Source: Fluviicoccus sp.
Lineage (GTDB): Bacteria; Pseudomonadota; Gammaproteobacteria; Pseudomonadales; Moraxellaceae
Assembly: GCF_030646115.1 (NCBI RefSeq)
Contig: NZ_JAUSMX010000008.1
Location: forward strand, 62,001 to 126,000
DNA length: 64,000 nt
Reading direction: 5' to 3'
The notes beneath the pieces were generated by a model. It worked only from the letters and a program-made list of their open reading frames with translations, did no database searches and was not told the origin of the DNA. Shown here piece by piece: positions 33,853 to 55,685 of the stretch (its first letter is position 1; the number at the start of each line of letters is the position of its first letter). The translations under genes were made by a program, and so were the position numbers.

Positions 33853-34191
33853 ATGCGCACATACACCATTGGATTCACGCCGGAACTGCAACACGAACAG
33901 GCCTTGCTCAGAAGTGTGCTGGTTTCTTTCGGCCGCCGTGAGTTTCATCGCTGGCTATGCGTGGCCGGGGCAGGAGCGGATGTGGTGATCGGACCGGTGG
34001 GAATTGCGGGCGACGCCGTCATGGAACAGGCCAGGGCACTGGGTAAAATTCTGGTGCATTACGGCGATGGAGCGGAGCATGCGGGGGTCAGCTCCCTGAT
34101 GCTGCCGAAGCCTGTCCATGCCCGTGAGCTGATCGCTCTGCTGGTGCGGCTGGAAGCATATCTGACCGGGATGTCTCCTGAGCGGAGTTGA
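33853..34191 (+). CDS. Small degenerate receiver-like protein
   Basis: 112 residues from the ATG at 33853, with AAGGAG at 33838-33843. The pattern of alternating strands and helices, and the late LPKPVHARELIALLVRLEAY, match the last part of a response-regulator receiver (conserved Lys-Pro, then helix 5). The phospho-acceptor Asp and the acidic pair are missing; the strand-3 position reads VVIGPVG. I infer a pseudo-receiver that works by binding rather than phosphorylation. It is first in the operon, 5 bases before the GGDEF-EAL gene. The family assignment is weak. Confidence 0.45.
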   Translation: MRTYTIGFTPELQHEQALLRSVLVSFGRREFHRWLCVAGAGADVVIGPVGIAGDAVMEQARALGKILVHYGDGAEHAGVSSLMLPKPVHARELIALLVRLEAYLTGMSPERS

Positions 34192-34196
34192 AGGCC

Positions 34197-37132: not shown

Positions 37133-38021
37133 GAGGGGGGAAGGCGCAGCGGGCCGTCCGGCCGTGGACGCAGGGGTACATGAGGTTGCCGATATGGTCT
37201 GCCGGCGAACCGGCATCGTGTTGCTGGAACATCAGTATGCTGAGTTGCCGGCGCTGGTTGAGGAAGGTTGCGCGTTGTTCGGCCGCACCGACCGGAATGA
37301 TTACCTGCGGGTCCTCCGGACACGGTCCCGCACACCTGAATTCGACTTTCTGGTGGACCGGATAACGATCAGTGAAAGCTATTTCTTTCGCGACGCCTCC
37401 CAGATGGCCTTGCTGCAGCACCGCTTGTTGCCGGAGATCATTGCCGACAAGCGCCTCAGCGGCGATCTTTCGCTGCGCATCTGGAGCGCCGGCTGCGCCG
37501 AGGGGCAGGAAATATACACGATGGCCATGCTGCTCCGTGAACTGATCCCGGACCTGAAGTCATGGTGCATATCCCTGTTGGCGACGGATATCAACCGATC
37601 GGCGCTGAAGAAAGCGGCAGTGGGGAAATACCGGAAATGGTCGCTGCGGTCCACGCCTCCTGGCATCAGGATGCATTATTTCCACCGGGCGGAGTACGAG
37701 TTTGTGATTTGCGATGATGTGCGCCGCATGGTGAGGTTTTCCTATCTGAATCTGGCCGAAGACCTGTTCCCGTCCCTGCACGGCGGTCAGGGTAATCTGG
37801 ATCTGGTGTTGTGCCGGAATGTACTGGTGTACCAGTCGCCGGAACGCGTGCCGGCGCTGATCTCGCGGCTGGCCGGCAGTCTGGCGGCGGGCGGCGCCCT
37901 GTTGCTTGGCGCATCTGACCATGTCCCGGCGTCGCTCAGGTCCTTGCTTCGGGTGCATGGCCCGGATGGCTCCATTCATTATCAGCGTCGGGCCGACGGC
38001 ATATTGCTGAAAACCGGATAA
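37113..38021 (+). CDS. cheR: Chemoreceptor methyltransferase CheR
   Basis: 302 residues from the ATG at 37113, preceded by a clean AGGAGG at 37101. An N-terminal helical domain is followed by the SAM-dependent methyltransferase domain with TISESYFFRD, the SAM loop IWSAGCAEGQEIYTMAM and LDLVLCRNVLVYQSPE. It methylates glutamates of the nearby receptor to set adaptation. It lacks the TPR tail seen in WspC. Confidence 0.93.
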   Translation: MPGLVRERGEGAAGRPAVDAGVHEVADMVCRRTGIVLLEHQYAELPALVEEGCALFGRTDRNDYLRVLRTRSRTPEFDFLVDRITISESYFFRDASQMALLQHRLLPEIIADKRLSGDLSLRIWSAGCAEGQEIYTMAMLLRELIPDLKSWCISLLATDINRSALKKAAVGKYRKWSLRSTPPGIRMHYFHRAEYEFVICDDVRRMVRFSYLNLAEDLFPSLHGGQGNLDLVLCRNVLVYQSPERVPALISRLAGSLAAGGALLLGASDHVPASLRSLLRVHGPDGSIHYQRRADGILLKTG

Positions 38022-38039
38022 AACCAAGCAGAGGTGATG

Positions 38040-38615
38040 ATGCCAGTGTCCGCCAATGACCCTGCCGTGACGGAGGGCCGGCAGTCCGATGACCAGGTCA
38101 GCGGCATATTGAAAGAGCGCGCCAGGCTGTTGGCGCGCCGGTTGGACAGCCCGCTCTCCGGTGAGCAGGAACAGGAACCTTACCTGTGTTTCCGGCTGGG
38201 TCTGGCCGGACTGTACGGCATACCCTTTACGGAAATTGAGGAGATCATTTCCTTACCGGAAATCACCCGGGTGCCTTGTACGCCGGATATCTATGCCGGG
38301 GTGGCGAATTACCGCGGGGAACTGTTGAGTGTTCTGGACATCAAAACCTTTTTTCAGGCCGTTGAACATGACTCTGAGGCAGAGGCAAGGGTGGTGGTGA
38401 TCCGGGCGGGCAGGGTAATGGCCGGGTTGCTGGTGGACGAAGTGGTGTCGACAGCGGCCTATGCCAACCAGAGCCTGACGCCGTTCATCGCGACGGCCGC
38501 CGGGTCAGTTCATGCCTGTGTCGTAGGGATTCATGAAGGCAATGTGATGATTCTGAGCGCGAGTGCGTTGCTTAACGATAAGGCGTTGACCGTCAATGAG
38601 CCGCCCGGGCGTTAA
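38040..38615 (+). CDS. CheW-like coupling protein (second)
   Basis: About 191 residues; adjacent ATG codons at 38037 and 38040 follow an AGAGG, so the exact start is uncertain by one residue. The N-terminal 40 residues are a charged helical extension; the CheW domain follows (YLCFRLGLAGLYGIPFTEIE, then GVANYRGELLSVLDIKTFF). Together with the first CheW it gives the operon two couplers of different surface, perhaps one for the receptor and one for the kinase. Confidence 0.88.
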   Translation: MPVSANDPAVTEGRQSDDQVSGILKERARLLARRLDSPLSGEQEQEPYLCFRLGLAGLYGIPFTEIEEIISLPEITRVPCTPDIYAGVANYRGELLSVLDIKTFFQAVEHDSEAEARVVVIRAGRVMAGLLVDEVVSTAAYANQSLTPFIATAAGSVHACVVGIHEGNVMILSASALLNDKALTVNEPPGR

Positions 38616-38658
38616 GCCAACGGGTGCGGGAATCCAATACAGGAGTGGAAGATAAATA

Positions 38659-40551
38659 ATGAACCATGGAAACGAAGACAATCCGGACAACCGGCAGGAT
38701 TTTGATGAAGACATCAATCCGGCGGGTATCAAGTCATTTATCGGTTTTACCTATGGGGATGTAGTGGCGCTGAAGGAGCTGCTGCCGGTGGTTACGGAAA
38801 ATGCAGACGCCATTGTGGAGCGGTTCTATGAAAACATCCGGCATCATCCGGAGTTGATGAGCACCCTTGAGAAGGCCGACTCCACTATCGAACGCCTTAA
38901 AAAGGTCCAGAAGCGTTACCTGCTGGAGTTGTTCCAGGGTGAATATGACTCCGACTATTTCATGAACCGCCTGCGCATTGGCGAGATTCACCAGCGTATC
39001 GGCTTGTCCTCCGGCTGGTATCTGGGCGCGTTCAGTGTCTATGTCCAGGAAATCACGCCCCTGATCCTGCGTAAATACCGATTCAACGGGATGGCTCGCA
39101 GCCAAGCCTTGCTGGCCTTGAATAAAATTGTCTTCATAGATGTCCAGTTGGCGATCAAGTCGTATCTGAAGGTCAGCCTGGACAATAAATTTGCCGACTA
39201 TCAAGGCCAGATTGAAGCCATCAGTATGTCCCAGGGGGTGATTGAGTTCAGCCTGGATGGTTCGATTCTCAATGCCAACGCCAACGCACTGCACATGTTC
39301 GGCTATGCCCCGGAAGAAATATACGGCAAGCCGCACAGCATTCTGGTGGATGCCTCCTATGTCAATAATGTCGATTACCGGATTTTCTGGGAAAGGCTGA
39401 ACCGGGGCGAATACGATGCCGGCGAGTACAAGCTGATTGCCAGGAACGGCAAGGAAATCTGGTGCCAGGCGACCTACAACCCCATTCTCGACAAGCATGG
39501 CAAGCCCTTCAAGATCGTCATGTACGCCAACGACATTACCAGCCAGAAAACCCAGAACGTGGTCTACCAGGCGCGGGTCAGAAGCTACAGCGCCTTCATA
39601 GATGAAGTGGCCCATGGCAATTTGCGGCAGAGGGTCAATGCCCAGGGTCATGATGAACTGAGCCTGATTGGCGGCAACCTGAACGCCATGACGGAAAGCC
39701 TGGCGCGCATGGCGGGAGAGGTGGGCGAGGCCGGCAATGAGATTTTCAGCACGCTGTCGCAATTGCAGTCGGCCGTGGATGTGCAGTCAACCGGAGCTTC
39801 CGAACAGGCGGCGGCCGTCAATGAAACGACGGTGACGCTGGAAGAAATCATGGCTACGTCCACCCAGACCTTGGGCAAGGCCCAGCAGCTGGGGGAGTCG
39901 GCAGAGAGAACCCGACGTGAAGGCGAGCAGGGTCTGATGACGGTGAAACAGACCATTAGCGGCATGGAGGCAATCCGCTCCCGGGTGGAAAACATCGCCA
40001 TGACCATTCTGGCGCTGTCCGAACACACCCAGCAGATCGGGGAAATTACGGCCGTGGTCACCAATCTGGCGCAGCAATCGAAAATGCTGGCTTTCAATGC
40101 CTCAATCGAAGCCGCCAAGGCCGGGGATGCCGGCCGGGGGTTTGCCGTGGTGGCCGCCGAGGTCAAAGATCTGGCCGAGCAATCCCAGCAGTCCACCGCC
40201 CAAGTCCAGAAAATATTGCAGGACATCCGCCGGGCCACCGACCGGGCAGTCATGGCGACCGAGGAAGGCAGCAAAGGCGTGGACGCCGGTGTGTTGCTGG
40301 TTCAGAAAAGCGGCGAAGTCATGCGGCAACTCAGCGAAGTCATTCATGAAACCGCTTTGGCCAGCCAGCAGATTGTGGCCGCCGTCCGCCAGGAGGTCAC
40401 CGGAATCAAACAGGTGACCCTCTCCATGAGCGAGATCAACAAGGTGACCACCCAGTTTGTCGCCGGAACGCAGGAAGCCAAAACCGCCTCCACCCGCCTG
40501 GGGGTGGTGGCGGGCAAACTGCGTGACAGTGTCAGTGTTTACAAAATCTAG
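38659..40551 (+). CDS. Soluble protoglobin-PAS methyl-accepting chemotaxis protein
   Basis: 630 residues without transmembrane helices. Residues 23-170 form a globin-coupled sensor domain: proximal His111 lies in RIGEIHQRIGLSSGWYLGAF, the diagnostic segment for haem-binding protoglobins such as HemAT. A PAS domain follows (about 185-300, with VIEFSLDGSILNANANALHM), then a HAMP-like linker (GNLRQRV) and a receptor signalling domain (about 350-625) with hairpin-tip region AFNASIEAAKAGDAGRGFAV and VVAAEVKDLAEQSQQS. It probably senses oxygen or another diatomic gas with haem in the cytoplasm and controls the CheA-REC kinase. Confidence 0.9.
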   Translation: MNHGNEDNPDNRQDFDEDINPAGIKSFIGFTYGDVVALKELLPVVTENADAIVERFYENIRHHPELMSTLEKADSTIERLKKVQKRYLLELFQGEYDSDYFMNRLRIGEIHQRIGLSSGWYLGAFSVYVQEITPLILRKYRFNGMARSQALLALNKIVFIDVQLAIKSYLKVSLDNKFADYQGQIEAISMSQGVIEFSLDGSILNANANALHMFGYAPEEIYGKPHSILVDASYVNNVDYRIFWERLNRGEYDAGEYKLIARNGKEIWCQATYNPILDKHGKPFKIVMYANDITSQKTQNVVYQARVRSYSAFIDEVAHGNLRQRVNAQGHDELSLIGGNLNAMTESLARMAGEVGEAGNEIFSTLSQLQSAVDVQSTGASEQAAAVNETTVTLEEIMATSTQTLGKAQQLGESAERTRREGEQGLMTVKQTISGMEAIRSRVENIAMTILALSEHTQQIGEITAVVTNLAQQSKMLAFNASIEAAKAGDAGRGFAVVAAEVKDLAEQSQQSTAQVQKILQDIRRATDRAVMATEEGSKGVDAGVLLVQKSGEVMRQLSEVIHETALASQQIVAAVRQEVTGIKQVTLSMSEINKVTTQFVAGTQEAKTASTRLGVVAGKLRDSVSVYKI

Positions 40552-40595
40552 GTTCAACCGACCCGGGGGCGGCTCCGGAGTCCTGGAGAAGGCCG

Positions 40596-42851
40596 GTGGC
40601 TAATGCACTGAATCCGGAGTTCATGGCGCAACTGGTGCAGATGTTCCGGGCCGAACTGGAGGAGAACCTGCAGTCCCTGACCGACGGGCTGATTGCGCTG
40701 GAACGGCTGAAGGGCGGCGAAGAGCGTCAAACCTGCGTTGACAACCTGTTTCGCGACGCACACAACATTAAAGGGGCGGCGCGCGGGGTCAATGTCAGCA
40801 ACGTCGAGCTTATTGCCCATGGCCTGGAGTCAATGCTGAGCGCCGTGCGCCAGGGCTTGCTGGAGCCGGATTCCCGGATGATTGATCTGTGCCTGCAGGG
40901 TGTGGACGGCATGAAGGAGGCCATGGATGCCTTCATGCCGTTCCGCCCGCTGGAGTTTGACTTGCAGGCCTTGCTGGACCGGCTGAATCACTGGCAGGAC
41001 TCCCTGACGTCAGAAGCCGGCAAGGAAGCGCAGCCGGTTGTGGAAGCGTCGCAGCCGGAAGAGCCAGCTATCCGGGCCGAGCCGCCAGCGGTGGCGGCAG
41101 CTGTCATTGCGACAGCGCGCGACCCCGGCCTGACCCGCATCGCCATGCATCGGCTGGATTCCGCCTCGGCGCTGGTGGAGGAACTGATGGCGACCAAGAT
41201 TGAAATGGAAGACCACTTTCTGGAGGTCCAGCAGCTGCTTGAAGCGGCCAACGCTTCCGCCCGGCTGCTGGCCAGGCTGGGTTCGGGAATGATGCAGCAG
41301 TCGTCGGTGAACACGGCCTTGTTGCGGGATGTCTACCCGCTGGATGCCGCCGCCGCCACCTTGGCCGATTTCCGTAAGGACAGCCAGCGGATCTTCAAGA
41401 AAATGCGGGCGGGCAATAACCGCCTGGGCCTGATCTCGGGCAATTTGCAGGATCAGGTGCGCATGATGCGCATGGTGCCGGTATCGACCCTGCTGTTGCC
41501 GATGGCCCGCACGGTTCGCGACCTGGCCCTGGAGTTGGGCAAACAGGTCAATTACGAGGTTATCGGCGAAGAGTTCGAAATGGACCGGCCGCTGCTGGAG
41601 GGAGTCAAGGATCCGTTGATGCATCTGCTGCGCAACAGTATTGATCATGGCATTGAAAAGTCCGGGCAGCGCCTGCGGCAGGGCAAGGAGTCGGCAGGCC
41701 GTCTTTGCATCAGCGTCCGGGGGGAAGGCAGCCGCATCCTCATGACCGTGGAGGATGACGGCGCCGGGATCAGCCTGAAAAAAGTGGCGGAAGCGGCGGT
41801 TCGCAAGCGGTTGCTGTCGGCGGCGGAAGCCCAGGCGCTGAGTCCGGCCGACACCCTGAACCTGATTTTCCGGCCTGGCTTTTCCAGTAATGAAATCATT
41901 ACCAATGTCTCCGGCCGGGGTGTCGGGCTGGACGTGGTGCTGTCCAATATCCGGAAACTGAAAGGAACCGTGCAGGTGGAATCCGAGGAGGGGCGGGGAA
42001 CCCGCTTCACGATAGCGCTGCCATTGAGTATGTCGATTGACCGCGGGCTGATGGTGCGGGTTGGCAGCGAATGCTATGTCCTGCCCAGTACCTCGGTGGT
42101 GCGGGTCATGGAAGTGGCCGCCCGTGAACTGGTCAATGTCGGCGGCCGGCAGGCCATACGCTTCCAGGGCAAGGCCGTGCCGGTCTGTGAATTGGCGGCG
42201 GTTCTGCAAAATACCGCACCGGATGCCGATCGCGGGCGTTTGCTGGCGGTGGTGGTGGAGAAAGGCTGGCAAATGGTGGCGTTTATGGTCGATGACATTA
42301 TCGGCGAGCGGGAAATCGTCATCAAGCGCTTCAAGCCGCCGCTGGCGGCGGTCCGCAACGTCACCGGCGGCACCCTGATGGGCAGCGGCAAGGTGCTGAT
42401 CGTGCTCAATCCTGCCGAGCTGGTGCAGTCCGCGCTGCAGCCGGGATTCCCGGGCCGCATTCATGCACGGGATGCAGCATCGGTTTCAGCGCCGCATATT
42501 CTGGTCGCGGATGATTCGATCACCACCCGCTCCCTGGAAAAGAACATTCTGGAAAGTCATGGCTACAAAGTGACCACGGCGATAGACGGCAGCCTGGCCT
42601 GGCAAGCCTTGCAGGGCGGAGATTTCGATCTCGTCGTCACCGACGCCGAAATGCCGGAAATGAACGGATTCGAGTTGGTCAGGCGCATCCGGGCCGATGC
42701 CCGTTATGGCGGAATTCCTGTGGTGATGGTGACATCGCTGGCCAGTGAAGCCGACAAGCAACGGGGTATCGACGCTGGCGCCGACGCCTACATCGTCAAG
42801 AGCCAGTTTGAGACAGACACACTGCTCAACATCATCAACCAGTTGATATGA
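40596..42851 (+). CDS. CheA-type histidine kinase fused to a receiver (WspE/FrzE-like)
   Basis: 751 residues from a GTG start with GGAG upstream. An HPt domain has phospho-His56 in DAHNIKGAARG; a variable linker follows (about 130-190). The dimerisation/kinase region holds MRMVPVSTLLLPMARTVRDL, N-box HLLRNSIDHG (343-352), G-boxes VEDDGAGIS and SGRGVGLDVV, then a CheW-like regulatory domain (about 470-620) and a C-terminal receiver with DD at 639-640, phospho-Asp683 in VVTDAEMPEMNGF and Lys735. The receiver on the kinase is typical of Wsp/Frz-type systems rather than flagellar CheA. No CheY gene is nearby. Confidence 0.93.
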   Translation: MANALNPEFMAQLVQMFRAELEENLQSLTDGLIALERLKGGEERQTCVDNLFRDAHNIKGAARGVNVSNVELIAHGLESMLSAVRQGLLEPDSRMIDLCLQGVDGMKEAMDAFMPFRPLEFDLQALLDRLNHWQDSLTSEAGKEAQPVVEASQPEEPAIRAEPPAVAAAVIATARDPGLTRIAMHRLDSASALVEELMATKIEMEDHFLEVQQLLEAANASARLLARLGSGMMQQSSVNTALLRDVYPLDAAAATLADFRKDSQRIFKKMRAGNNRLGLISGNLQDQVRMMRMVPVSTLLLPMARTVRDLALELGKQVNYEVIGEEFEMDRPLLEGVKDPLMHLLRNSIDHGIEKSGQRLRQGKESAGRLCISVRGEGSRILMTVEDDGAGISLKKVAEAAVRKRLLSAAEAQALSPADTLNLIFRPGFSSNEIITNVSGRGVGLDVVLSNIRKLKGTVQVESEEGRGTRFTIALPLSMSIDRGLMVRVGSECYVLPSTSVVRVMEVAARELVNVGGRQAIRFQGKAVPVCELAAVLQNTAPDADRGRLLAVVVEKGWQMVAFMVDDIIGEREIVIKRFKPPLAAVRNVTGGTLMGSGKVLIVLNPAELVQSALQPGFPGRIHARDAASVSAPHILVADDSITTRSLEKNILESHGYKVTTAIDGSLAWQALQGGDFDLVVTDAEMPEMNGFELVRRIRADARYGGIPVVMVTSLASEADKQRGIDAGADAYIVKSQFETDTLLNIINQLI

Positions 42852-42882
42852 GCGGTTAAGCACACCCAAAGGAGAAAACAAG

Positions 42883-43932
42883 ATGATACGTATATTGATA
42901 GCCGAGGATTCCAACGTCGTGGGTTTGTTGTTGAAGACCATTTTTGAGCAGGAAGGCGATATGGAGGTGGTCGGCCAGGCCATGAACGGCCTGGACGCCG
43001 TGCGTATGGCCCTGGAATTGAAGCCGGATATTGTCACCATGGACATCCGCATGCCGGTCATGGACGGTTTTGAAGCCACGCGCGAGATCATGACGCACAT
43101 TCCGCTGCCGATTGTGGTCATCAGCACCAGCATCAACGATGCAGAACTCCAAACCTCGTTCCGGGCCATTGAGGAGGGGGCGCTGGCGGTCATTGAGAAA
43201 CCGGTGGGCTTTTCCCATCCGGATTTCGAGGCCAACCGCCGGGAGCTGGTCCACGTCGTCAGGGCCATGTCCGGCATCAAGGTGGTGACCCGGACAAGAG
43301 CTGAGCCTGCCCCGGTGGAGGCGGATGCCTGGCGGCCGCCGGAACTGGTTCTGGGCGACTACCCCGAAGTCGTTGCCATCGGCAGCTCGACCGGCGGGCC
43401 TCAGGCCCTGCTTTCTGTGCTCAAGGGGCTGTCGCGTAATTTTCCCGTCCCCATTGTCATTACCCAGCACATGAGCAAGGGCTTTGTGGGCGGTCTGGTG
43501 ACCTGGCTACAGGCGCATACCCCGTTGAAGATCTGCCTGGCGGAAAACTTCATGAAGCTGACGCCGGGAACAGTTTATCTCGCCCCGGATGACTGCCACA
43601 TGCAAGTGGAGCGGCGCATGGGCGGGCTGGTCATCCGGCTGGATGATGGTCCTCCGGTTCATGGCGCGAGACCCTCCGTCACCCAGTTGTTCCGCTCGGT
43701 TGCCAAGGTTACGCATGGGCAGGGCATCGGCGTGCTGATGACCGGTATGGGCGAGGACGGCGCCGACGGCCTGCTGGCGATGAAGCGTGCGGGCTGTCAT
43801 ACCGTTGTCCAGGATAACGCCAGCGCCGTGGTTTATGGCATGCCGGGGGCGGCGCTGGCGCTGGATGCAGTGGTTGAAGTAGTGCGGCTGGGAAAGCTGC
43901 CGGTTTATCTGACCGGCATGGTCCAGAAATAG
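42883..43932 (+). CDS. cheB: Chemoreceptor methylesterase CheB
   Basis: 349 residues. An N-terminal receiver has the phospho-Asp in IVTMDIRMPVMDGFEATR (residues about 47-64). The C-terminal methylesterase has the catalytic Ser in AIGSSTGGPQALLSVL, His in VITQHMSKGFVGGLV and Asp in GMGEDGADGLLAM. It opposes CheR and, once phosphorylated by the CheA-REC kinase, resets receptor methylation. It corresponds in order to WspF. AAGGAG lies about 9 bases upstream. Confidence 0.95.
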   Translation: MIRILIAEDSNVVGLLLKTIFEQEGDMEVVGQAMNGLDAVRMALELKPDIVTMDIRMPVMDGFEATREIMTHIPLPIVVISTSINDAELQTSFRAIEEGALAVIEKPVGFSHPDFEANRRELVHVVRAMSGIKVVTRTRAEPAPVEADAWRPPELVLGDYPEVVAIGSSTGGPQALLSVLKGLSRNFPVPIVITQHMSKGFVGGLVTWLQAHTPLKICLAENFMKLTPGTVYLAPDDCHMQVERRMGGLVIRLDDGPPVHGARPSVTQLFRSVAKVTHGQGIGVLMTGMGEDGADGLLAMKRAGCHTVVQDNASAVVYGMPGAALALDAVVEVVRLGKLPVYLTGMVQK

Positions 43933-43973
43933 CTCCGGAATCCCGTGGAGCGACTATTAAACAGAGGGACGCC

Positions 43974-44789
43974 ATGTTTGATTTCGGTATGGTCATGCAC
44001 TCATCCCTGAAGGACGGCCGTCACTGGTTCTATGCCATTGATGGCGACACCGGCCTGCAGATATCCCCGGTGGCCCCGAATCATTGCCGGGCGGGGTATT
44101 TTCTGGCGGAACTGATCGCCTTCAAGCTGAAAACCCTGGACCGGGTTCCCGAGGCGCTGGAGATATCGACGCTGGACGTGGAGACCTGCCCGGCGCTGGT
44201 GCGATACCAGCCGCGCAAGAACCGGCATGGCGGCAAGGTGACGGTGCACCTGGCCTTGCTGCCGGCGCCGGACGGGGCGAGGGATGTTATTTGTGACCGT
44301 GACTGCCTGTTTGTGACTCCGCAGCCGCCCCGGGACTGGGACGGGGAAAATGATTACAACCGCTGGATATACAGCATCGCCAGTTTCCTGGGGCTTGAAG
44401 TGGTCTCGCCGGACAAGGCGGGTGATCCCCGGGCGTATCTGGCCATGGCCACCCGTAAACTGCAGGCGGGTCTGCCGGAGTTGTTCCGCCAGTACAGTCA
44501 GCAACCGGGAGATCTGATTTTTGTCTTTAGGATCAAGCTAGATGCACAAGGTGACGAAGGCTATGGCTGGCTGAAGGTCTGTTCATGGCCCGAGCCCGGC
44601 AGGATTGTCGGCGTCCTGGTTCCGTCACCCTACGACCTGCTGACATTTTCCGGCGGCCGTGAGCTGGACGTGGACGTGAAGGATCTGGCGGACTGCATTA
44701 TTGTGACCCGGGATGCCCGTGTGGTGGACCGGGGGGTGCTGAGCCGCATCATGGTGGATTACGGACTGGAAAGCCTGACACTGCTGTAA
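43974..44789 (+). CDS. Conserved protein of unknown function, possible DUF2314-like C-terminal domain
   Basis: 271 residues, soluble, starting with ATG 42 bases after cheB, with AGAGGGA upstream. I do not recognise the N-terminal half (residues 1-170). The C-terminal part (about 175-250) reads GDLIFVFRIKLDAQGDEGYG, then WLKVCSW and GVLVPSPYDLL, which resembles the DUF2314 pattern (strand, then Glu-x-x-Trp-x-x-Val, then Gly-x-Leu). No catalytic motif stands out. Position suggests a role in, or under, the chemosensory system. Confidence 0.45.
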   Translation: MFDFGMVMHSSLKDGRHWFYAIDGDTGLQISPVAPNHCRAGYFLAELIAFKLKTLDRVPEALEISTLDVETCPALVRYQPRKNRHGGKVTVHLALLPAPDGARDVICDRDCLFVTPQPPRDWDGENDYNRWIYSIASFLGLEVVSPDKAGDPRAYLAMATRKLQAGLPELFRQYSQQPGDLIFVFRIKLDAQGDEGYGWLKVCSWPEPGRIVGVLVPSPYDLLTFSGGRELDVDVKDLADCIIVTRDARVVDRGVLSRIMVDYGLESLTLL

Positions 44790-44850
44790 AAAACAAGATG
44801 GGGAATCATGGTGATCACCCAGGCGAGCATGATTTTTTGACTGGATACTT

Positions 44851-46158
44851 ATGAGCATTCTCCTCAATGTCATGGAAATTCTGAAGCAGGGAACGCTGGT
44901 GCAGCATCAGGCATTGCACGGCCTGCCATATTTCACGGCTCTGGAGGGGCAAAAACTGGAGATGGCGTCCTATGCCGGATGGCTGGCCGCGTTGCGGGTT
45001 GTTTTCGAGGTGCTGGAGCAGGCATTCCAGCGGGCGGCCTGTCCGGGTGTCGTGTCATGGGGGGTGGAAGTGACGGGAAAAAGGGCGTTGGTGGAGCAGG
45101 ACTGGCGGCATTTTACAGCCCGGGGCCTGCCGGAACCGGTGCGGGCCATGCTGCAGGCGCATCTGTTTGCCCAGAAAATCCGCCGCCGGGCTCTGCTGGA
45201 GCCCCGGTCCCTGCCTGGGTACTGGTATGTCTTCGAAGGCTCCATGCTGGGCGGGACGCTGCTGAAAATACAATATGCACGATGTTTTCATCTGGACCCG
45301 TTGTCCGGCGGCCTGGATTATCTGTCTTGCCACGGCCTGTCCGTAAAGTGCCAGTGGGAGGAATTCGGCCAAAAAATGCAGGCCATGGACTGGAAGCCTT
45401 CCGAAGTTGCCGGACTCGCAGCGGCAGCCAACGAGGCTTTTGAGGCCATGACGAATATTTTTATAGCGCTGCATCCTCTGGATGCCGACGCCTGTTCATT
45501 CCGGGCTGACGCATTGAATTTCGAAGCGGGCAAACATGTGGTGACCAATGATATCCGGGAGTTGGAGGCTGTCTTCAGGGCGGGGGAGCGCACTTGGCAG
45601 GTATTTCCATATTGCCGGTTGCGCTACGGGGAAAGGGGGGAGCGCTTTACCCACAGTGACAGCGCCTGGCTGACCGCCTTGTCGGAGAATGAACAGGTGG
45701 TGGTGGATGAGCAGATCCACTGGTTGGGCGGGCTTTTGGCGGTCAGGGGCATGCCCACCTGGATGCTGGAGTCGCATTTGCATATTTTGCATGACGAGTT
45801 GGTGACGGCGGTTCCGGAAAAGCATCAAACATATCGGCGGCTGTTGTTGGCGGCGCATCGCCTGCACCAGCGGCGGCAGCGCTGCATAGACGACGCATGT
45901 TTTGAGATGCTGGCCGGTTGGTTTGACCAGCATGCAGATGCGGAGTGGACCCGGAAGATGCCCGGAACGGGCGGCTTGCTGGTTTCTGCGGTGGTGGACG
46001 AACGCAGCGGGATTCAAAATGCTGTCGGCGCTCTGGCGGGCTGGCTGACCGACGCCAGCCGTTTTCCCCAAGCCTGGCGAGAGGCCGTACAGGAGTTGAT
46101 TGTTCAGGCCAAGGCGGCAAGCGTTGAGGCGCCGCGCGCCAGTGAACCAGTGAAGTAA
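44851..46158 (+). CDS. Haem oxygenase-like protein with an unassigned C-terminal half
   Basis: 435 residues. Residues 1-215 fit the haem-oxygenase fold: His19 (LVQHQALHGLPYFTAL) is placed as the proximal haem ligand, and YVFEGSMLGG (126-135) matches the distal-helix motif YVLEGSTLGG that sits over the haem in biliverdin-forming enzymes. Residues 225-435 are helical and I cannot assign them; they hold several His and Trp (SHLHILHDELVTAV, HRLHQRRQRC). It is the last gene of the operon, before a strong terminator. Whether it cleaves haem, or only binds haem, bilin or another ligand, is open. Confidence 0.6.
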   Translation: MSILLNVMEILKQGTLVQHQALHGLPYFTALEGQKLEMASYAGWLAALRVVFEVLEQAFQRAACPGVVSWGVEVTGKRALVEQDWRHFTARGLPEPVRAMLQAHLFAQKIRRRALLEPRSLPGYWYVFEGSMLGGTLLKIQYARCFHLDPLSGGLDYLSCHGLSVKCQWEEFGQKMQAMDWKPSEVAGLAAAANEAFEAMTNIFIALHPLDADACSFRADALNFEAGKHVVTNDIRELEAVFRAGERTWQVFPYCRLRYGERGERFTHSDSAWLTALSENEQVVVDEQIHWLGGLLAVRGMPTWMLESHLHILHDELVTAVPEKHQTYRRLLLAAHRLHQRRQRCIDDACFEMLAGWFDQHADAEWTRKMPGTGGLLVSAVVDERSGIQNAVGALAGWLTDASRFPQAWREAVQELIVQAKAASVEAPRASEPVK

Positions 46159-46186: not shown

Positions 46187-46332
46187 CAAAAAAGCCCCCT
46201 GCCTTTTTGGGACAGGGGGCATTTTGCAGTGGCTGCAGACCGTGGATCGCGCAAGGCCTTTGGGAAGCCCGTGAAAACCGTTAGTACATGCAATCAAAAC
46301 CACCCCATCGGGAGGAGAACAGCCGCCCGATA
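46187..46332 (-). ncRNA. Candidate small RNA, minus strand, about 145 nt
   Basis: A complete small-RNA gene can be drawn on the minus strand. Starting near 46331, the RNA opens with a stem (ACCCTATCGGG, 46336-46326, pairing with CCCGATGGGGT, 46312-46302), continues with about 70 bases of linker including GGTTTTGATTGC, and ends in the terminator GCCCCCTG/CAGGGGGC followed by six U (46193-46188). A matching promoter sits at 46338-46366. No protein-coding frame is convincing there, and I do not recognise any known RNA family. Confidence 0.55.
46194..46220. terminator. Bidirectional intrinsic terminator between the chemosensory operon and the sRNA
   Basis: GCCCCCTG (46194-46201) pairs with CAGGGGGC (46213-46220) around an 11-base loop. 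On the plus strand ATTTTG follows, closing the operon; on the minus strand six T follow, closing the candidate small RNA. Confidence 0.85.
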
Positions 46333-46366: not shown

Positions 46367-46387
46367 TACAAAGGCGGCTGTCGCCTG

Positions 46388-46399
46388 TACAAAATTGTA
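46388..46399. promoter_or_regulatory. Palindromic candidate operator between the sRNA promoter and the CarH/LitR-like gene
   Basis: TACAAAATTGTA is a perfect 12-base palindrome (TACAA-AA-TTGTA), flanked by T and A at positions one further out. It lies 22 bases beyond the small-RNA -35 box and about 190 bases before the MerR-type gene. MerR-family and CarH/LitR regulators bind short AT-rich dyads of this kind near their own promoters, so it is a reasonable autoregulatory site. The remaining bases to 46576 show only AT-rich sequence and no other feature I can support. Confidence 0.4.
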
Positions 46400-46590: not shown

Positions 46591-47556
46591 ATGGATAATC
46601 CTCTTTACTCCGCTTGCCCTGACCAGTCACCGGGGGATGCCGAGTCTGTACTGTTGCCCATTCATGCGGTTGAACGTGAAACCGGAATACCCAAGGAATT
46701 ATTGCGGATGTGGGAGCGCCGTTACGGGTTTCCTGACCCGGAACGAAACGCGCTTGGAGAACGGGTATATTCGCAAAATCAAGTTTATAAACTGGGTATT
46801 ATCCGGCGTTTGATTGATAGCGGTTTCAGGCCTGGAAAAATAGTGGGTTTAAGTATTGCAGAGCTGGAGCAGCTGTGTGTTGCTGACCCAAAGGGAAGCC
46901 GGTTTTTCCTGCTCAGTGAACTGGAAAGAGAGTTGCTGGGGGAGATATGCCGCGCAGATCCCGATAGCCTGGAAAATTACCTGCAGCAGCAACTTGATAA
47001 AATGGGCCTGCACTCTTTTATCATGAATTTCATGCGCTTGGCGAATGTGATGGTGGGCGATGCCTGGATGACCGGGAAAATCACTGTCGAACAGGAACAT
47101 TTATATTCTGAAAAAATTCAATCAATAATGAAAAAGGCTCTTGGTTGTTTGCCCCCCGGGGTCTTGAGGCCGCGTATTTTGCTGGCGACAGTGCCTGATG
47201 AGTTGCATACGCTGGGTTTGCTGATGGTGGAGGGCTTATTGCGGCTGGATGAGGTGGATGTGCTCAATTCAGGCGCTGAGATGTCACTTCAGGATATTGT
47301 GGATGCGGCGTTTCAGCACCGGATTGATGTGGTGGGGCTCTCATTCAGCGCGTCGTTTGCGCCCAGCAGGGCAGTGCCGTTATTGGAGGCATTGCGCCTC
47401 AAATTGCCGATTCATATCCATATGTGGGCCGGGGGCAGTGGGGTGGCTTCTTGCCGAAGGGATATCGCAGAGGTGGATATCGTCAGGGATCTGGATGATA
47501 TCCGTATGCGGGTGGCTCGTTGGCGGCAGCAACAGGCCGCTGCCGGGCGGGCTTGA
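46591..47556 (+). CDS. CarH/LitR-like B12-dependent photoreceptor, MerR family
   Basis: 321 residues from the ATG at 46591, with AGAGGGG 7 bases upstream. A MerR helix-turn-helix (about 22-90) has PIHAVERETGIPKELLRMWE and RRYGF. A four-helix bundle (about 110-185) carries W159-x9-E169-H170 (WMTGKITVEQEH), the CarH signature that caps the adenosylcobalamin upper face. The Rossmann-type B12 domain has E204-L-H206-T-L-G209 (DELHTLG), the lower axial His motif, and later GLSFSAS. Both light-sensing motifs are intact. In CarH and LitR, light breaks the Co-C bond and releases DNA. Target genes are not visible apart from possible self-control. Confidence 0.85.
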   Translation: MDNPLYSACPDQSPGDAESVLLPIHAVERETGIPKELLRMWERRYGFPDPERNALGERVYSQNQVYKLGIIRRLIDSGFRPGKIVGLSIAELEQLCVADPKGSRFFLLSELERELLGEICRADPDSLENYLQQQLDKMGLHSFIMNFMRLANVMVGDAWMTGKITVEQEHLYSEKIQSIMKKALGCLPPGVLRPRILLATVPDELHTLGLLMVEGLLRLDEVDVLNSGAEMSLQDIVDAAFQHRIDVVGLSFSASFAPSRAVPLLEALRLKLPIHIHMWAGGSGVASCRRDIAEVDIVRDLDDIRMRVARWRQQQAAAGRA

Positions 47557-47609: not shown

Positions 47610-49289
47610 TCAGGGCAAGTCAGTCACCGCACCGGTGGAGGCGCTGCTGACCAGCTTGGCGTACTTGGCCAGCACGCCGCGCTTGAACTTCGGTTCCGGC
47701 GCGGTCCACTTGGCCTTGCGCGCCGCCAGGTCGGCATCGCTGACGTCAACGCTGATTTCGCGGGTTTCGGCATCAATGGTGATGCGGTCACCGTTCTCCA
47801 GCAGTCCGATCGGGCCGCCTTCCGCCGCTTCCGGGGTAATGTGGCCCACCACGAAACCGTGGCTGCCGCCGGAGAAACGGCCGTCGGTAATCAGCGCCAC
47901 TTCCTTGCCCAGGCCCTTGCCCATCACCGCCGAGGTCGGCGACAGCATTTCCGGCATGCCGGGGCCGCCCTTCGGGCCTTCGTAGCGAATCACGATCACA
48001 TCACCAGCCTTCACTTCACCGTTGAGGATGCCGGCCAGCGCCGCTTCCTCGCCGTCATAGACGCGGGCGGTGCCTTCAAAACGCAGGCCTTCCTTGCCGG
48101 TAATCTTGGCGACCGCGCCGGTGGGCGAGAGGTTGCCCTTCATGATCACCAGGTGCGAGTCCTTCTTGATCGGCTTGTCCAGCGGCATGATGATCTGCTG
48201 TCCTTCCGGATAGTCCTGCACGTCCGCCAGGTTTTCGGCCAGCGTCTTGCCGGTCACGGTCAGGACGTCGCCGTGCAACATGCCAGCGTCAAGCATGCGC
48301 TTCATCAACGGCTGGATGCCGCCAATGGCCACCAGTTCGCTCATCATGTACTTGCCGGACGGGCGTACGTCGGCGACCAGCGGCGTAATGTCCCCAAGAC
48401 GTACGAAGTCGTCCAAGGTCAGGTCCACGTCCACGGAGTTGGCCATGGCCAGCAGGTGCAGAACCGCGTTGGTGGAACCGCCCAGCGCGATGACGACGCG
48501 GATGGAGTTCTCGAAAGCCTTCTTGGTCATGATGTCGCGCGGCTTGATGTCGCGCTTCAGCAGTTCCAGCACCTGCTGGCCGGCGCGGAAGCAGTCGTCG
48601 GTCTTGTCGGTGCTGATGGCGTCCTGGGCGCTGGAGCCCGGCAGGCTCATTCCCAGCGCTTCAATGGCGCTGGCCATGGTGTTGGCGGTGTACATGCCGC
48701 CGCAGGAACCGGGGCCAGGGATGGCTACTTCTTCAATCTGCTTGACCTGGATGGCGTTCAGCTCACCCTTGGCGTGCTGGCCGACGGCCTCGAACACCGA
48801 GATGATGTCGGTGTTGCCGGCGCCGGGCTTGATGGTGCCGCCATAAACGAAGATGGACGGGCGGTTCAGGCGCGCCATGCCGATGATGCAGCCGGGCATA
48901 TTCTTGTCGCAGCCGCCAACCGCGACCAGGCCGTCAAAGCCTTCGCAGCCGGCCACGGTTTCAATGGAGTCGGCAATGACTTCGCGGGACACCAGGGAGT
49001 ACTTCATGCCGCTGGTGCCGTTGGCGATGCCGTCGGAAATAGTGATGGTGTTGAAGATCACCGACTTGCCGCCGGCGGCGTCGACGCCGCGCCCGGCTTC
49101 CTCGGCCAGCTTGTTGATGTGCATGTTGCAGGGGGTGACCATGGCCCAGGTCGAGGCAATGCCGACCTGCGGCTTGGTGAAGTCTTCATCGGTGAAACCG
49201 ACGGCGCGCAGCATGGCGCGGCCAGGCGCGGCTTCGATTCCGTCAACCATTTCGGAGGAATATTTGCGGGTGTTGGGGGTATCGCACAT
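47610..49289 (-). CDS. ilvD: Dihydroxy-acid dehydratase
   Basis: 559 residues from the ATG at 49289. Iron-sulphur and active-site motifs are present: GCDKNMPGCIIGMARLNRPS (about residues 120-139) and GPGSCGGMYTANTMASAIEA (about 188-207), with the late TDGRFSGGSHGFVVGHI. Length fits the shorter class of the IlvD/Edd family. It dehydrates dihydroxy acids in isoleucine and valine synthesis. argA lies 26 bases upstream on the same strand. Confidence 0.96.
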   Translation of the reverse strand: MCDTPNTRKYSSEMVDGIEAAPGRAMLRAVGFTDEDFTKPQVGIASTWAMVTPCNMHINKLAEEAGRGVDAAGGKSVIFNTITISDGIANGTSGMKYSLVSREVIADSIETVAGCEGFDGLVAVGGCDKNMPGCIIGMARLNRPSIFVYGGTIKPGAGNTDIISVFEAVGQHAKGELNAIQVKQIEEVAIPGPGSCGGMYTANTMASAIEALGMSLPGSSAQDAISTDKTDDCFRAGQQVLELLKRDIKPRDIMTKKAFENSIRVVIALGGSTNAVLHLLAMANSVDVDLTLDDFVRLGDITPLVADVRPSGKYMMSELVAIGGIQPLMKRMLDAGMLHGDVLTVTGKTLAENLADVQDYPEGQQIIMPLDKPIKKDSHLVIMKGNLSPTGAVAKITGKEGLRFEGTARVYDGEEAALAGILNGEVKAGDVIVIRYEGPKGGPGMPEMLSPTSAVMGKGLGKEVALITDGRFSGGSHGFVVGHITPEAAEGGPIGLLENGDRITIDAETREISVDVSDADLAARKAKWTAPEPKFKRGVLAKYAKLVSSASTGAVTDLP

Positions 49290-49315
49290 GGAAACAAATC
49301 TCGGTCGGTAGTGAA

Positions 49316-50632
49316 TCAAATTTTCTTGCGGTAAACCTGCGAACTGCGCTGGTAGTTGTACATGTCCTTGCGTTCCTTTGGCAGGTCGTCCACGGAGGCG
49401 GGTTCGAAGCCTTGCTCAATGAACCACAGGCCGGTGCGCGTTGTCAGTACAAACAGTAGCTTCAAGCCCTTGGTGCGGGCGCGTGCTTCGAGATAATCCA
49501 GCAGTTCGGAGCCACGGTCGGAGTTGCGGTAGCTGGGGTGCACCGCCACGCAGGCGATTTCCCCGGCCGGGTCCGAACCGGCATCCACCTGCAACGGGTA
49601 CAGCGCCGCGCAGCCGACAATCATGCCGTCGCGTTCAATGACACAGAACTGGCTGATTTCCGTTTCCAGGCGCTCGCGGGAGCGGCGCACCAGGATGCCT
49701 TCTTCTTCCAGCGGCCGCATCAGCTCCAGCATGCCCGCCACATCTTCAATTTCGGCGGTGCGGATTTCTTCGTACGGGTCCTGGGTGATCAGCGTGCCGG
49801 AGCCGTCGCGGGTGAACAACTCCTGCAGCAGCGCACCGTCGCGGGCGTAGGAAATCATGTGCACGCGGCGCACGCCGCCACGGCAGGCTCCGCGTGCGGC
49901 ATCCATGTAGCGCAGGATTTCAGTATCGAAAGTCTTGCCGCGCAGATATTGGTCCACCTCATTGGGGATCAGTTCGCGCAGCAGGCGGTCGTCGGTGTCG
50001 GCAATGCCTTCCCGCTCGCCCAGCAAAATCAGCTTGTCCGCCTTCAAGGCCATCGCCGTGCGCACCGCCACATCTTCGGCGCGCAGGTTGAACACTTCGC
50101 CGGTGGTGGAGTAGCCGGTAGGGCCGAGGATGACGATATGGCGGTTGACCAGATTCTTGTTGATGGCCTCGATGTCGATGGAACGCACTTCGCCCGTCAG
50201 CTGGTAATCGACGCCGTCACGAATGCCGTAAGGCTTGGCGGTGACGAAGTTGCCGGAGACGGCGTCAATGCGCGCACCGTACATCGGCGAATTCGCCAGG
50301 CCCATGCTCAACAGCGCCTCGATTTCCAGACGGATGGAGCCGACGGCATCCATCACGCAGCGCAGCGATTCCCGCGTGGTGACGCGGATGCCCTGATGGA
50401 ACGGCGTGGTCAGGCCGTACTCGACCAGGTTTTCATCTATTTGCGGTCGCGCGCCATGCACCAGCACCAGGCTGATGCCCAGGCTGTGCAGCAGTGCGAT
50501 GTCGTGAATGATGTTGCGGAAGTTGTCGTGGTTGACCGCTTCGCCGCCAAACATCAATACAAAGGTCTTGCCCCGGTGGGCGTTGATATACGGAGCGGAA
50601 TTCCGGAACCAGTGCACATACTGTTCCGTCAT
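49316..50632 (-). CDS. argA: N-acetylglutamate synthase (amino-acid kinase fold fused to GNAT)
   Basis: 438 residues from the ATG at 50632, giving MTEQYVHWFRNSAPYINAHR as in Pseudomonas ArgA. The N-terminal amino-acid-kinase-like domain (about 1-280) has FVLMFGGEAV and LVLVHGARPQID and binds arginine as feedback inhibitor. The C-terminal GNAT domain (about 290-438) has acetyl-CoA motif VAVHPSYRNSDRGSELLDYL. It makes N-acetylglutamate, the first step of arginine synthesis. argE is 46 bases upstream. Confidence 0.96.
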   Translation of the reverse strand: MTEQYVHWFRNSAPYINAHRGKTFVLMFGGEAVNHDNFRNIIHDIALLHSLGISLVLVHGARPQIDENLVEYGLTTPFHQGIRVTTRESLRCVMDAVGSIRLEIEALLSMGLANSPMYGARIDAVSGNFVTAKPYGIRDGVDYQLTGEVRSIDIEAINKNLVNRHIVILGPTGYSTTGEVFNLRAEDVAVRTAMALKADKLILLGEREGIADTDDRLLRELIPNEVDQYLRGKTFDTEILRYMDAARGACRGGVRRVHMISYARDGALLQELFTRDGSGTLITQDPYEEIRTAEIEDVAGMLELMRPLEEEGILVRRSRERLETEISQFCVIERDGMIVGCAALYPLQVDAGSDPAGEIACVAVHPSYRNSDRGSELLDYLEARARTKGLKLLFVLTTRTGLWFIEQGFEPASVDDLPKERKDMYNYQRSSQVYRKKI

Positions 50633-52940: not shown

Positions 52941-55685
52941 ATGCGTAAAACTACCAACAACCAGGCCCGCAACGCCTGGCGTCTCAATCCGCTGGCCCTG
53001 TCGGTCGCTCTGGTTCTGGGTGGCGTGTCCGCTCAAGCCCTGGCGGTTGCGCCGGATGCCGGCCAGACCATCGGCAACATCGCGACCGCGACCTATACCG
53101 ACGGTTCGGGTGTGGTGCGTCCCGCCACGTCCAATCCCGTGTCCACCACTGTCCTGCAAGTTGCCAGCTTCACGCTGGACGCCACGCAGACCAAGTATGT
53201 GACGCTGGGTGGCCAGGTCGTGTATCCGCACACCTTGACCAACACCGGTAACGGCACCGACACCTTCCGCCTGACCGTGGCCCAGACCACCAACGGCGCT
53301 GGCGACGTGTTCAACCTGAACTCGCTGGCCATCTATGCCGATGCCGACGGCAACGGCGTGCCGGATAACGCAGTCAACCTGGCCGGCACGGACGTTTCCC
53401 TTAACCGCAATGACGTCTTCACCTTCGTGGTGGTGGGTTATGCGCCGGGCACCGGGTTGGTCGACGCTGACACTTCCATTGTCACCGTCACCGCTGACTC
53501 GCGGGTATTCCAGGCCGTTCCGGCCGATGATCCTGCCAACATCAGCAATGTCGACACGGCCATCCTGACCGCTGACGCCGTCATCAATGTCACCAAGTCG
53601 GCGAACGTGACCCAAGGCCCCACCGGCACCGTCATTGAATACACCATTACCTATACCAACGTTGGTAACAACACCGCCACCGGCGTGACGTTGACCGATG
53701 CTGTGCCCGCCGGCACTACCTACCAGCCCAACACCGGTTCCTGGAACGGCGGGGTTCAGACTGACGGCGCTGATGCCGATGTGTTCTCTGAAGCTGCGGG
53801 CACCATTACCGCCGCCGTGGGTTCCGTGGCTCCCAATGTCACCGGCCAAATCAAGTTCAGTGTCATTGTTGACGCGACAACGGCCCCAGGTTTCCTGACC
53901 AACACCGCCGAATACACCTATGATCCTGATGGTGCTGGTCCAAAGGGGGATATCGGCCCGACACCGTCCAACGACGTGCTGTTTGAAGTGCTGCAAACCC
54001 GTAATGTCGGCGCCAACGATGACGCCGTGCTTGAAACCGACCTGGGTGTTGATGACCGCGTCGAGCAAGGCCCGGTGCTGCAAGGCGCTACGGTTACCTT
54101 CGAAGACTATATCTGGAACCAGGGCAACGGTACCGATACTTTCAACATCACCTACGCCAACACCAGCTTCCCGGCGGGCACCTCCTTCACGCTGTATCAG
54201 GCCGACGGCCTGAACGTGCTGCAGGACACCAACGGTGACTTCATTCCGGATACCGGCCCTGTGGCCGCCGGTGCAGGTTACAAGGTTGTCGTCAAGGCCG
54301 TGTTGCCGGGTTCCGTGTCCAGCGGCACCAACCTCGACATGGTCGTAACCGCCACTTCCACCGCTACCGGCGTTATCTTGGTTGCGGGCGATCAGGACGA
54401 CACCGTCACCAACCGTGTCACCAGCATCATTGGCAGCACGGTTGACTTGCAAAACGCCGGCGGCTTGGCAACAGGCACTGGCGCAGCCAATGAAACCGTT
54501 GGCGGCGATGGCACCACACCGTTCACCACTCAAACCGTGAATCCGGGCAATAATGCCAGCTTCGTGCTGAATGTGGTCAACACTTCCGCCACGGCTGACA
54601 ACTACGGCTTCCTCGCGGATCAGGACGGCGTTTTCGGCGGTGTGGATGATCTGCCTGCCGGCTGGGCCGTGACCTACTATCAGGACGGCGGCGCAGGTGA
54701 CTGCTCCTCCTACGGTGCAGCCATTGTCAACACTGGCACCATTAATGCTGGCGCTACCGGCACCTTCTGCGCCGTGGTCTCGGTCCCAGCCAATGCTGCT
54801 CCGGTGACGGCGCAGGAAGTCTGGTTCCAAACCACCTCGCCGCTGACCGGCGCCACGGACAAAAAGCTGGACGCCCTGTCCGTGAATACGGTTCGTGACA
54901 TCCAGATCACCACCAACAACAGCAACACCGTCTACCCGGGTGGTACGGTGGATTATGTCCACATCATCACCAACAACGGTAACGTGCTGGAAGGTGATGG
55001 TGCTGGGGAAGTGGTGCTGTCAGCTGCTAACTCCACGGTTGGTGTCAATGCCTGGAACACCCAGTTGTTCTATGATGCCGACAACAACGGCGTACTGAGC
55101 GTAGTGGAAGCGTCGACTCCGATTTCGGATATCAGCGCCTTTACGTCGAACCTGGCCGTTGGCTTGGCTCCGGGAGAATCCATCCGGATCTTCGCCCGTG
55201 TCCAGTCCAACGTCAACGCCAACCCGGGTGACACCGATGTGGCAACCATTACCCTCACCACCACCGGTGCGGTCAATAGCGTGGCTGCTCCGGCTGCTGT
55301 GCTCAACACCGACACCACCAGTGTCATCGGTGGTCAGGTGCGTCTGGTCAAGACCCAGGCTCTGGATGCAAACTGTGACGGAACGGAAGATGGTGGCGGC
55401 TTTGTGCTGACGCCGTTGACCGCCAAGCCCGGCGCTTGCATCATCTACCGTGTTGTGGCCGAGAACCAAGGTGTTTCCCCTGCCACCAACGTGGTGGTGA
55501 ACGACACCACGCCGACGTACACCACGCTGGATACTGCGGGCGGTCGTCCGACGGTTACCGGTGCCGGTAACACCATCACCGCATCGCCGGGCAATAACAA
55601 CGCCGGTAACGTGCAGGCCACCATCCCCAACCTGAACGGTGGTGCTTCCGAAACCATCGAGATCGGTGTGCAGATCGACAACTAA
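52941..55685 (+). CDS. Large exported DUF11-repeat surface protein
   Basis: 914 residues; signal peptide with hydrophobic LALSVALVLGGVSAQALA (about 20-37). The rest is a chain of Ig-like strand-rich domains of DUF11 type: TVLQVASFTLDATQTKYVTL, then VNVTKSANVTQGPTGTVIEY with VGNNTATGVTLTDAVPAGTT, and a last copy near residue 820-905. Calcium-loop-like stretches (DADGNGVPD, DTNGDFIPD, DADNNGVLS) lie between strands. Very Asn/Thr/Gly rich with few Cys. There is no LPXTG, PEP-CTERM or barrel end, so anchoring must come from another protein. A terminator follows the gene. Confidence 0.82.
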   Translation: MRKTTNNQARNAWRLNPLALSVALVLGGVSAQALAVAPDAGQTIGNIATATYTDGSGVVRPATSNPVSTTVLQVASFTLDATQTKYVTLGGQVVYPHTLTNTGNGTDTFRLTVAQTTNGAGDVFNLNSLAIYADADGNGVPDNAVNLAGTDVSLNRNDVFTFVVVGYAPGTGLVDADTSIVTVTADSRVFQAVPADDPANISNVDTAILTADAVINVTKSANVTQGPTGTVIEYTITYTNVGNNTATGVTLTDAVPAGTTYQPNTGSWNGGVQTDGADADVFSEAAGTITAAVGSVAPNVTGQIKFSVIVDATTAPGFLTNTAEYTYDPDGAGPKGDIGPTPSNDVLFEVLQTRNVGANDDAVLETDLGVDDRVEQGPVLQGATVTFEDYIWNQGNGTDTFNITYANTSFPAGTSFTLYQADGLNVLQDTNGDFIPDTGPVAAGAGYKVVVKAVLPGSVSSGTNLDMVVTATSTATGVILVAGDQDDTVTNRVTSIIGSTVDLQNAGGLATGTGAANETVGGDGTTPFTTQTVNPGNNASFVLNVVNTSATADNYGFLADQDGVFGGVDDLPAGWAVTYYQDGGAGDCSSYGAAIVNTGTINAGATGTFCAVVSVPANAAPVTAQEVWFQTTSPLTGATDKKLDALSVNTVRDIQITTNNSNTVYPGGTVDYVHIITNNGNVLEGDGAGEVVLSAANSTVGVNAWNTQLFYDADNNGVLSVVEASTPISDISAFTSNLAVGLAPGESIRIFARVQSNVNANPGDTDVATITLTTTGAVNSVAAPAAVLNTDTTSVIGGQVRLVKTQALDANCDGTEDGGGFVLTPLTAKPGACIIYRVVAENQGVSPATNVVVNDTTPTYTTLDTAGGRPTVTGAGNTITASPGNNNAGNVQATIPNLNGGASETIEIGVQIDN

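Follow-up and report, generated by a model that had tools for sequence, protein, structure and literature searches.

A MerR-family regulator encoded beside a chemosensory gene cluster in Fluviicoccus sp. raises the question of whether it senses light through adenosylcobalamin (AdoCbl) and, if so, which genes it controls. The regulator, P0001, was analysed together with the 64-kb window that contains it, the window being the whole stretch of DNA under study. Its frame runs on the + strand from an ATG at 46591 to a stop at 47556, with a TTG at 46585 as a possible alternative start, and the open reading frame, Pfam matches, structural model and fold matches identify the 321-aa product (46591..47556) as a LitR/CarH-type MerR regulator. 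Pfam matches that all exceed their family cut-offs, to MerR_1 (1.8e-12), B12-binding_2 (3.8e-7) and B12-binding (1.1e-11), delimit an N-terminal MerR winged-helix DNA-binding domain (aa 22-90; 46654..46860), a four-helix bundle (aa 111-185; 46921..47145) and a Rossmann B12-binding domain (aa 190-300; 47158..47490), the latter two also being evident in the model; this is the domain order expected of LitR/CarH proteins in the broad sense. The best PDB relatives by sequence are likewise the TtCarH/LitR entries 3whp and 5c8d (E about 4e-21). The original prediction of a CarH/LitR-type protein is thus borne out by the Pfam domains, by the fold matches and by the pocket core of its homologues, while a profile comparison agrees at the level of these Pfam families and not at that of the NCBIfam CarH equivalog NF052513, against which P0001 scores 114.8 bits, below the curated cut-off of 400. 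Other assignments were tried and rejected. An MlrA-like, B12-free regulator was discarded because the pocket core is kept and the NCBIfam MlrA equivalog scores 22 bits, far below its cut-off of 417; a class II LitR, which has the bundle without the Rossmann domain, because the B12-binding domain is present; and a photocobilin because Pfam reveals no biliverdin-binding domain after the cobalamin domain, the protein ending at aa 321 with a last helix at 302-318.

The cobalamin pocket was examined in an alignment of P0001 and TtCarH with 91 non-duplicate homologues. These 91 exclude TtCarH, MlrA and P0001 and include the own-genome paralogue L002; four exact duplicates (L004, L006, L008, L009), fragments shorter than 270 aa (L092, L097) and L003 were dropped before counting, and each homologue was assumed to begin at the earliest start codon in its open frame. 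Translation places W159-x9-E169-H170 and E204-x-H206-x-x-G209 exactly where they had been predicted, in both coordinates and residue numbers, and with the lower axial histidine they make up the residue pattern of LitR/CarH proteins in the broad sense. By translation and alignment, W159 (47065..47067; this and all further residues on the + strand) is the equivalent of TtCarH W131, which is described as stacking on the adenosyl group (PMC10442372), E169-H170 (47095..47100) matches TtCarH E141-H142, and H206, within the E204 to G209 motif (47200..47217), is the expected lower axial histidine (TtCarH H177). The GxxW, EH and axial His elements (TtCarH G128/W131, E141/H142 and H177) are each found in 89/91 homologues and all together in 87/91, which argues that the motif in P0001 is not due to chance, and the core pocket residues are kept in P0001 at about 50% divergence. 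The closest homologues also carry the B12 motif, contrary to what would be expected had the nearest relatives been B12-free regulators. L037, L091, L093 and L094 have lost parts of the pocket core and are possible B12-free members.

The signatures had been predicted to be intact, and this holds for the core of W159, E169, H170 and H206 but not for the positions now occupied by M160, D203 and S232. By alignment, M160 (47068..47070) lies at the position of TtCarH His132, reported to be the upper ligand in the light state (PMC10442372), a column in which none of the 91 homologues has His (35 have Met, 33 Glu and the remainder other residues). In TtCarH numbering, E140 is replaced by Q168, G174 of the published GxxH element by D203 (47197..47199) and P203 of GxxxP by S232 (47284..47286). 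The Gly of GxxH is kept in 22/91 homologues, so failure of the D203 type is common to most of the clade, and the Pro of GxxxP is kept in 90/91, making S232 a departure of P0001's own. Scored against the four-element AdoCbl photoreceptor signature (GxxW, EH, GxxH and GxxxP) as given in PMC11796333, P0001 shows GxxW (G156-x-x-W159) and EH (E169-H170) and lacks GxxH and GxxxP at D203 and S232; 22/91 homologues have all four elements and 64/91 fail solely on the Gly of GxxH. Conservation of at least 90% was seen in 73 columns, of which P0001 nevertheless keeps 68, departing by D53N, E168Q, R181K, T199A and P232S. The missing His132 does not by itself exclude light sensing, because CtMerR, with Arg at that position, is reported still to monomerise (PMC11796333). 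The TtCarH H132A variant is described as staying mostly tetrameric in the light, although disassembly had been reported before, as that paper notes (PMC10442372). With M160, Q168 and S232 in its altered pocket, P0001 would be expected to differ from TtCarH in light-state chemistry or in its oligomer switch.

An AlphaFold (AF2) model of P0001 was generated from a 37-row alignment (mean pLDDT 90, pTM 0.69), and the first 18 Foldseek matches to it were all TtCarH chains from Thermus. Superposition of the full-length model on CarH gave rmsd values of 12-17 Å for most chains covering both domains, the halves being placed differently in the model, and because of this poor fit the domain arrangement of P0001 is unsure. 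The CarH cobalamin domain alone fits the model well, with Z about 20 and an rmsd of 2.3-2.8 Å. Scores close to that of CarH were also obtained for photocobilins (Z about 20) and for the haem-binding SCHIC domain of AppA (Z about 19), and the fold alone therefore cannot name the ligand.

P0001 shares its genome with the paralogue L002 (G000 C3:2140-3054); a local alignment of the two gives 49% identity, and counting aligned columns gives 46.7%. By domain, the identity is 68% in the DNA-binding region, where P0001 keeps 32/33 conserved columns, 45% in the bundle and 49% in the Rossmann domain. In the phylogenetic tree P0001 branches as sister to a group of 16 Moraxellaceae-clade sequences (support 100/94 for the 17 and 99/90 for the 16), a position that is unsure because its branch is so long (0.88), and its nearest match in 348 genomes of the family has 52% identity (52.7% by tblastn). 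The host family includes Perlucidibaca-like genomes, and the named homologues of the nearest clade carry the labels Moraxellaceae or Perlucidibacaceae among the best 80 of 190. A literature search on CarH in Moraxellaceae or Perlucidibaca returned nothing on the subject among the matches listed. In genome G030 (C28:11145-11967) a LitR homologue is spread over two overlapping frames (L092 and L097) whose matched parts omit the axial-His stretch, reflecting either an assembly error or a broken gene. The host genome encodes a PduO-type AdoCbl transferase and gave no match for a BtuR-type adenosyltransferase; because the PduO-type enzyme is present, the host can, going by its gene content, probably make AdoCbl from salvaged cobalamin.

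Many of the closest homologues adjoin photolyase or CFA-synthase genes. L002 itself is part of a run that encodes, in order, an FAD oxidoreductase (FADox), DUF1365, CFA synthase, a SnoaL-like protein, the MerR regulator (L002) and photolyase, which from strand and overlap we infer to be a single operon. Of 15 Moraxellaceae homologue genes, L002 included and the split G030 gene counted as one, 10 are followed immediately by a photolyase-family match; P0001 lacks one there, as do the second G028 copy and the G015, G017 and G029 genes. At 73 other loci, mostly from betaproteobacteria with two labelled Gammaproteobacteria and many with short flanks, 51 have a FADox, DUF1365 or CFA gene, or more than one of these, nearby and one has a photolyase match, and in the flanks examined none of the 73 has a phytoene synthase match. 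The SQS_PSY (phytoene/squalene synthase) profile likewise has no match in the host genome, which is 97.7% complete, and control of carotenoid synthesis by P0001 was rejected for that reason. At L110:9020-9074 (G016 C2), two operator matches lie shortly 5' of a second LitR copy, which has a photolyase-family match immediately 3'. The paralogue's gene run, together with the operator described below, provides a good light link for the clade. P0001 is a genuine LitR/CarH-type regulator, well placed in a light-linked clade, in which it represents a diverged, stand-alone second copy.

The operator of the clade is a 15-bp element, commonly of the form TTTGT-N5-ACAAA. Sixty-one regions upstream of FADox were found, of which 57 were distinct and long enough, and the motif occurs in 27/57 of these against 22/1140 windows drawn at random from the same loci, a comparison in which the upstream regions are related and so are not independent cases, and in which the background windows may touch operators. 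The shorter TTGT-N5-ACAA occurs in 30/57 against 24/1140, and spacings of N4 and N6 were each found in 0/57. Direct ACAA repeats 5' of FADox are also enriched at spacings of 11 bp (22, the background being 0.7) and of 22 bp (16, the background being 0.5), resembling the 11-bp repeat published for CarH, nAnnTnnACAn (PMC8156234). A second matrix, trained on 33 distinct sites from loci outside Moraxellaceae, located sites scoring 12.5-26.6 in 9/9 Moraxellaceae LitR loci from seven genomes, about 350 bp or less 5' of the FADox or the MerR gene, compared with a shuffled 95% level of 9.4 per 6 kb that was set from the base make-up of the window and would be higher for A+T-richer relatives. Few TGTACA-type words were found 5' of homologue starts; the Moraxellaceae regulator sits inside a gene run, and its promoter is thus elsewhere. 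Across nine relatives the exact pattern occurs at 51 sites, only slightly more than the 40 of reversed controls. The surroundings of 10 of the 51, chosen partly for their resemblance to the consensus and so indicating recurrence rather than an unbiased rate, comprise five with a folE or acyl-CoA-dehydrogenase match, two with FADox and three with none of these.

In the host genome the exact pattern occurs at six places versus one for the reversed control, and four of the six, in the operator regions at G000 C3:6754, C25:15986, C3:57367 and C23:223959, score 13-26 with the second matrix. The site before the L002 gene run (22.8) abuts the FADox start. The strongest among the own-genome places scanned, at L120:2987-3001 (G000 C25:15986-16000; score 26.0), separates the gene for a 595-aa acyl-CoA dehydrogenase from that for a 146-aa lipoprotein-like protein; it recurs with the lipoprotein-like gene in G004, G019 and G231, and on the dehydrogenase side only in G012. 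A site scoring 13.2 overlaps the first ATG of folE, and in G004 the folE site lies about 390 bp upstream of the matched start. Two sites (15.8 and 14.6) precede the gene for a short BLUF-domain protein of 186 aa (L123:3063-3623; G000 C23:224062-224622); among the BLUF loci of relatives, none of the five scanned had a match above 10 (best 9.9), and two further BLUF matches fell outside the scan. Of the remaining two host places, one precedes a metallophosphoesterase-like gene (10.6) and the other falls within an open reading frame (3.8).

P0001's own locus looks different. TTGT-N5-ACAA is absent from the 64-kb window, whose best second-matrix score, 9.3, falls inside a large open reading frame. 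Upstream of P0001 the best match is a single GTACAAA half-site at 46377..46395 (no strand assigned), for which no function is claimed; it scores 2.0, compared with 13-26 at the four predicted target promoters. The first matrix reaches 1.3 there, a value equalled or exceeded at 20 of 63982 window positions. Candidate operators built from TGTACA/TGTATA (46386, 46396) were rejected for their poor fit to the clade operator, and one from TACAAA (46367, 46388) because its spacing is 21 rather than 22. With no clade operator 5' of the gene, there is no sign of autoregulation. An Rfam scan of the window returned zero matches at gathering scores. Two large DUF11-containing proteins are encoded at 52941-55685 (914 aa) and 55799-61846 (2015 aa), the larger also having an SdrD_B-like match.

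Upstream of P0001 lies a chemosensory cluster (36572-46158) of CheW, CheR, CheW, a protoglobin-PAS-HAMP-MCP receptor, CheA-REC, CheB, a 271-aa protein unmatched in Pfam, NCBIfam and PDB sequences, and a haem-oxygenase-like protein of 435 aa (44851..46158, + strand) with its haem-oxygenase domain in the first half; a MEDS-PAS-GGDEF-EAL protein is encoded just 5' of it (34188-36575). To our knowledge, a globin-type receptor beside a haem-oxygenase-like protein is unusual. The gap between the haem-oxygenase-like gene and P0001 is 432 bp and contains a strong hairpin (46194..46220; -28.8 kcal/mol over a 55-nt stretch, z -3.0), and on the other side ilvD (47610..49319, - strand) is convergent with P0001, which is likely a separate transcription unit. 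Read-through from the cluster may still occur, because the scan reports a terminator-like element at the hairpin solely for the - strand and found no promoter-like site on the + strand 5' of P0001. Only nearness ties P0001 to the chemosensory cluster: in the flanks examined (up to 9 kb, many of them shorter), no haem-oxygenase-like or 271-aa gene was found near the homologues. The earlier suggestion that adjacency to chemosensory and haem-related genes implies light input to lifestyle control therefore finds no support, given the gap and hairpin, a window devoid of the operator and neighbours absent near the homologues examined, and control of the chemosensory genes by P0001 is unsupported.

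We lean slightly towards P0001 being a class-I-like LitR/CarH repressor that is AdoCbl-bound in the dark and acts on a LitR regulon elsewhere in the genome. In the dark P0001 would most likely bind adenosylcobalamin, with H206 below the cobalt and W159 and E169 around the adenosyl group, and the AdoCbl-loaded protein would be able to bind DNA; light would split the Co-C bond and weaken this binding. The likely targets would be the TTTGT-N5-ACAAA regulon rather than the adjoining genes, comprising the FADox-DUF1365-CFA-SnoaL-MerR-photolyase genes, folE, the short BLUF protein and the acyl-CoA-dehydrogenase/lipoprotein-like pair, and P0001 may share this regulon with, or modulate, the photolyase-linked paralogue L002. 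In our judgement, which is not a computed value for any of these parts, P0001 quite probably binds cobalamin and fairly probably responds to light, while the chances that it shares targets with L002 are evenly balanced. L002 alone may use the regulon sites.

P0001 could instead act like CarA, as a partner on shared operators, perhaps with cobalamin but with no direct action of light because the tetramer switch has been lost; another protein might then control it, or it might merely set the floor of repression. The replacement by S232 of a Pro kept in 90/91 homologues would fit such a role, the equivalent Pro in CtMerR being described as reaching over from the adjacent monomer to contact the adenosyl group (PMC11796333), as would E168Q, the better conservation of the DNA-binding domain relative to L002 than of the bundle and Rossmann domains, and the account of M. 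xanthus CarA and CarH acting on one operator with B12 needed by CarH only (PMC8156234). However, P0001 keeps W159, E169, H170 and H206, unlike the four homologues with an incomplete core, and we consider the CarA-like role unlikely. That P0001 is a decaying paralogue without function is less likely again: the long branch, the nearest identity of 52-53% within the family and the substitutions near the pocket point that way, but a full-length open frame with 68/73 conserved columns does not. Control of the adjoining chemosensory and c-di-GMP genes is similarly improbable, for although the MEDS-PAS-GGDEF-EAL gene and the protoglobin-PAS-MCP gene lie upstream and the lack of a + strand promoter-like site would permit co-transcription, the hairpin in the gap, the operator-free window and the lack of this adjacency near homologues all argue against it. 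We give least credence to a haem or bilin sensor tied to the haem-oxygenase-like neighbour, which would draw on that adjoining gene and on the fold shared with AppA SCHIC, since the AdoCbl-contacting W, E and H and the axial His are kept and no domain follows helix 302-318. A more speculative circuit, which we regard as a long shot, would have two repressors, L002 as the AdoCbl photoreceptor of the photolyase/CFA/folE regulon and P0001 as a second repressor at the same TTTGT-N5-ACAAA sites, its pocket retuned (M160, Q168, S232) and light acting on it weakly or via another protein. The BLUF protein, with two operator matches 5' of its gene, is a candidate partner in this circuit and, if so, would join flavin and cobalamin light inputs on one operator set.

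P0001 is a diverged paralogue that extends a LitR branch found in beta- and gammaproteobacteria. In this branch the core of the AdoCbl pocket is retained, none of the 91 members examined has His132, and most (64/91) fail one element alone of the published photoreceptor signature. Because the evidence for a link to light comes from gene neighbourhoods and from an operator open to testing, the branch offers a way to test both how the light state would work in the absence of bis-His ligation and the rule by which such photoreceptors are recognised. Compared with the class I protein TtCarH/LitR of Thermus thermophilus, P0001 has the same domain order, W-x9-EH and ExHxxG motifs and fold, and in Thermus a photolyase gene lies close to carH, much as among the Moraxellaceae members of the P0001 clade; however, the two proteins are 27.7% identical over aligned columns, P0001 has M160 for His132 as well as D203 and S232, and the link of its clade is to CFA synthase and not to carotenoid synthesis. 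CtMerR of Chloracidobacterium (8JBS/8JBT) is, like P0001, a MerR-B12 protein without His132; it is reported as a photoreceptor that goes from tetramer to monomer in the light and to show all four signature elements, of which P0001 has two (PMC11796333). The class II LitR proteins of Pseudomonas (PplR1-3, PmlR2) are described as keeping the four-helix bundle only, whereas P0001 has both B12 subdomains, but the regulon parts are similar, with light-induced photolyase, a fatty-acid-modifying enzyme and folE (PhrB, UfaM and FolE in P. putida); control of PmlR2 is exerted by a short LOV protein (PMC9758184). In V. cholerae (VCA0056-57) a MerR gene adjoins the photolyase gene phr and is reported to be needed for a blue-light response (PMC5241685); Vibrio LitR is placed in class IV, without a B12-binding domain (PMC9758184), to which we infer that VCA0056 belongs. 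The genome of Myxococcus xanthus likewise encodes two MerR-B12 paralogues, CarA in addition to CarH (PMC8156234), an arrangement like that of P0001 and L002.
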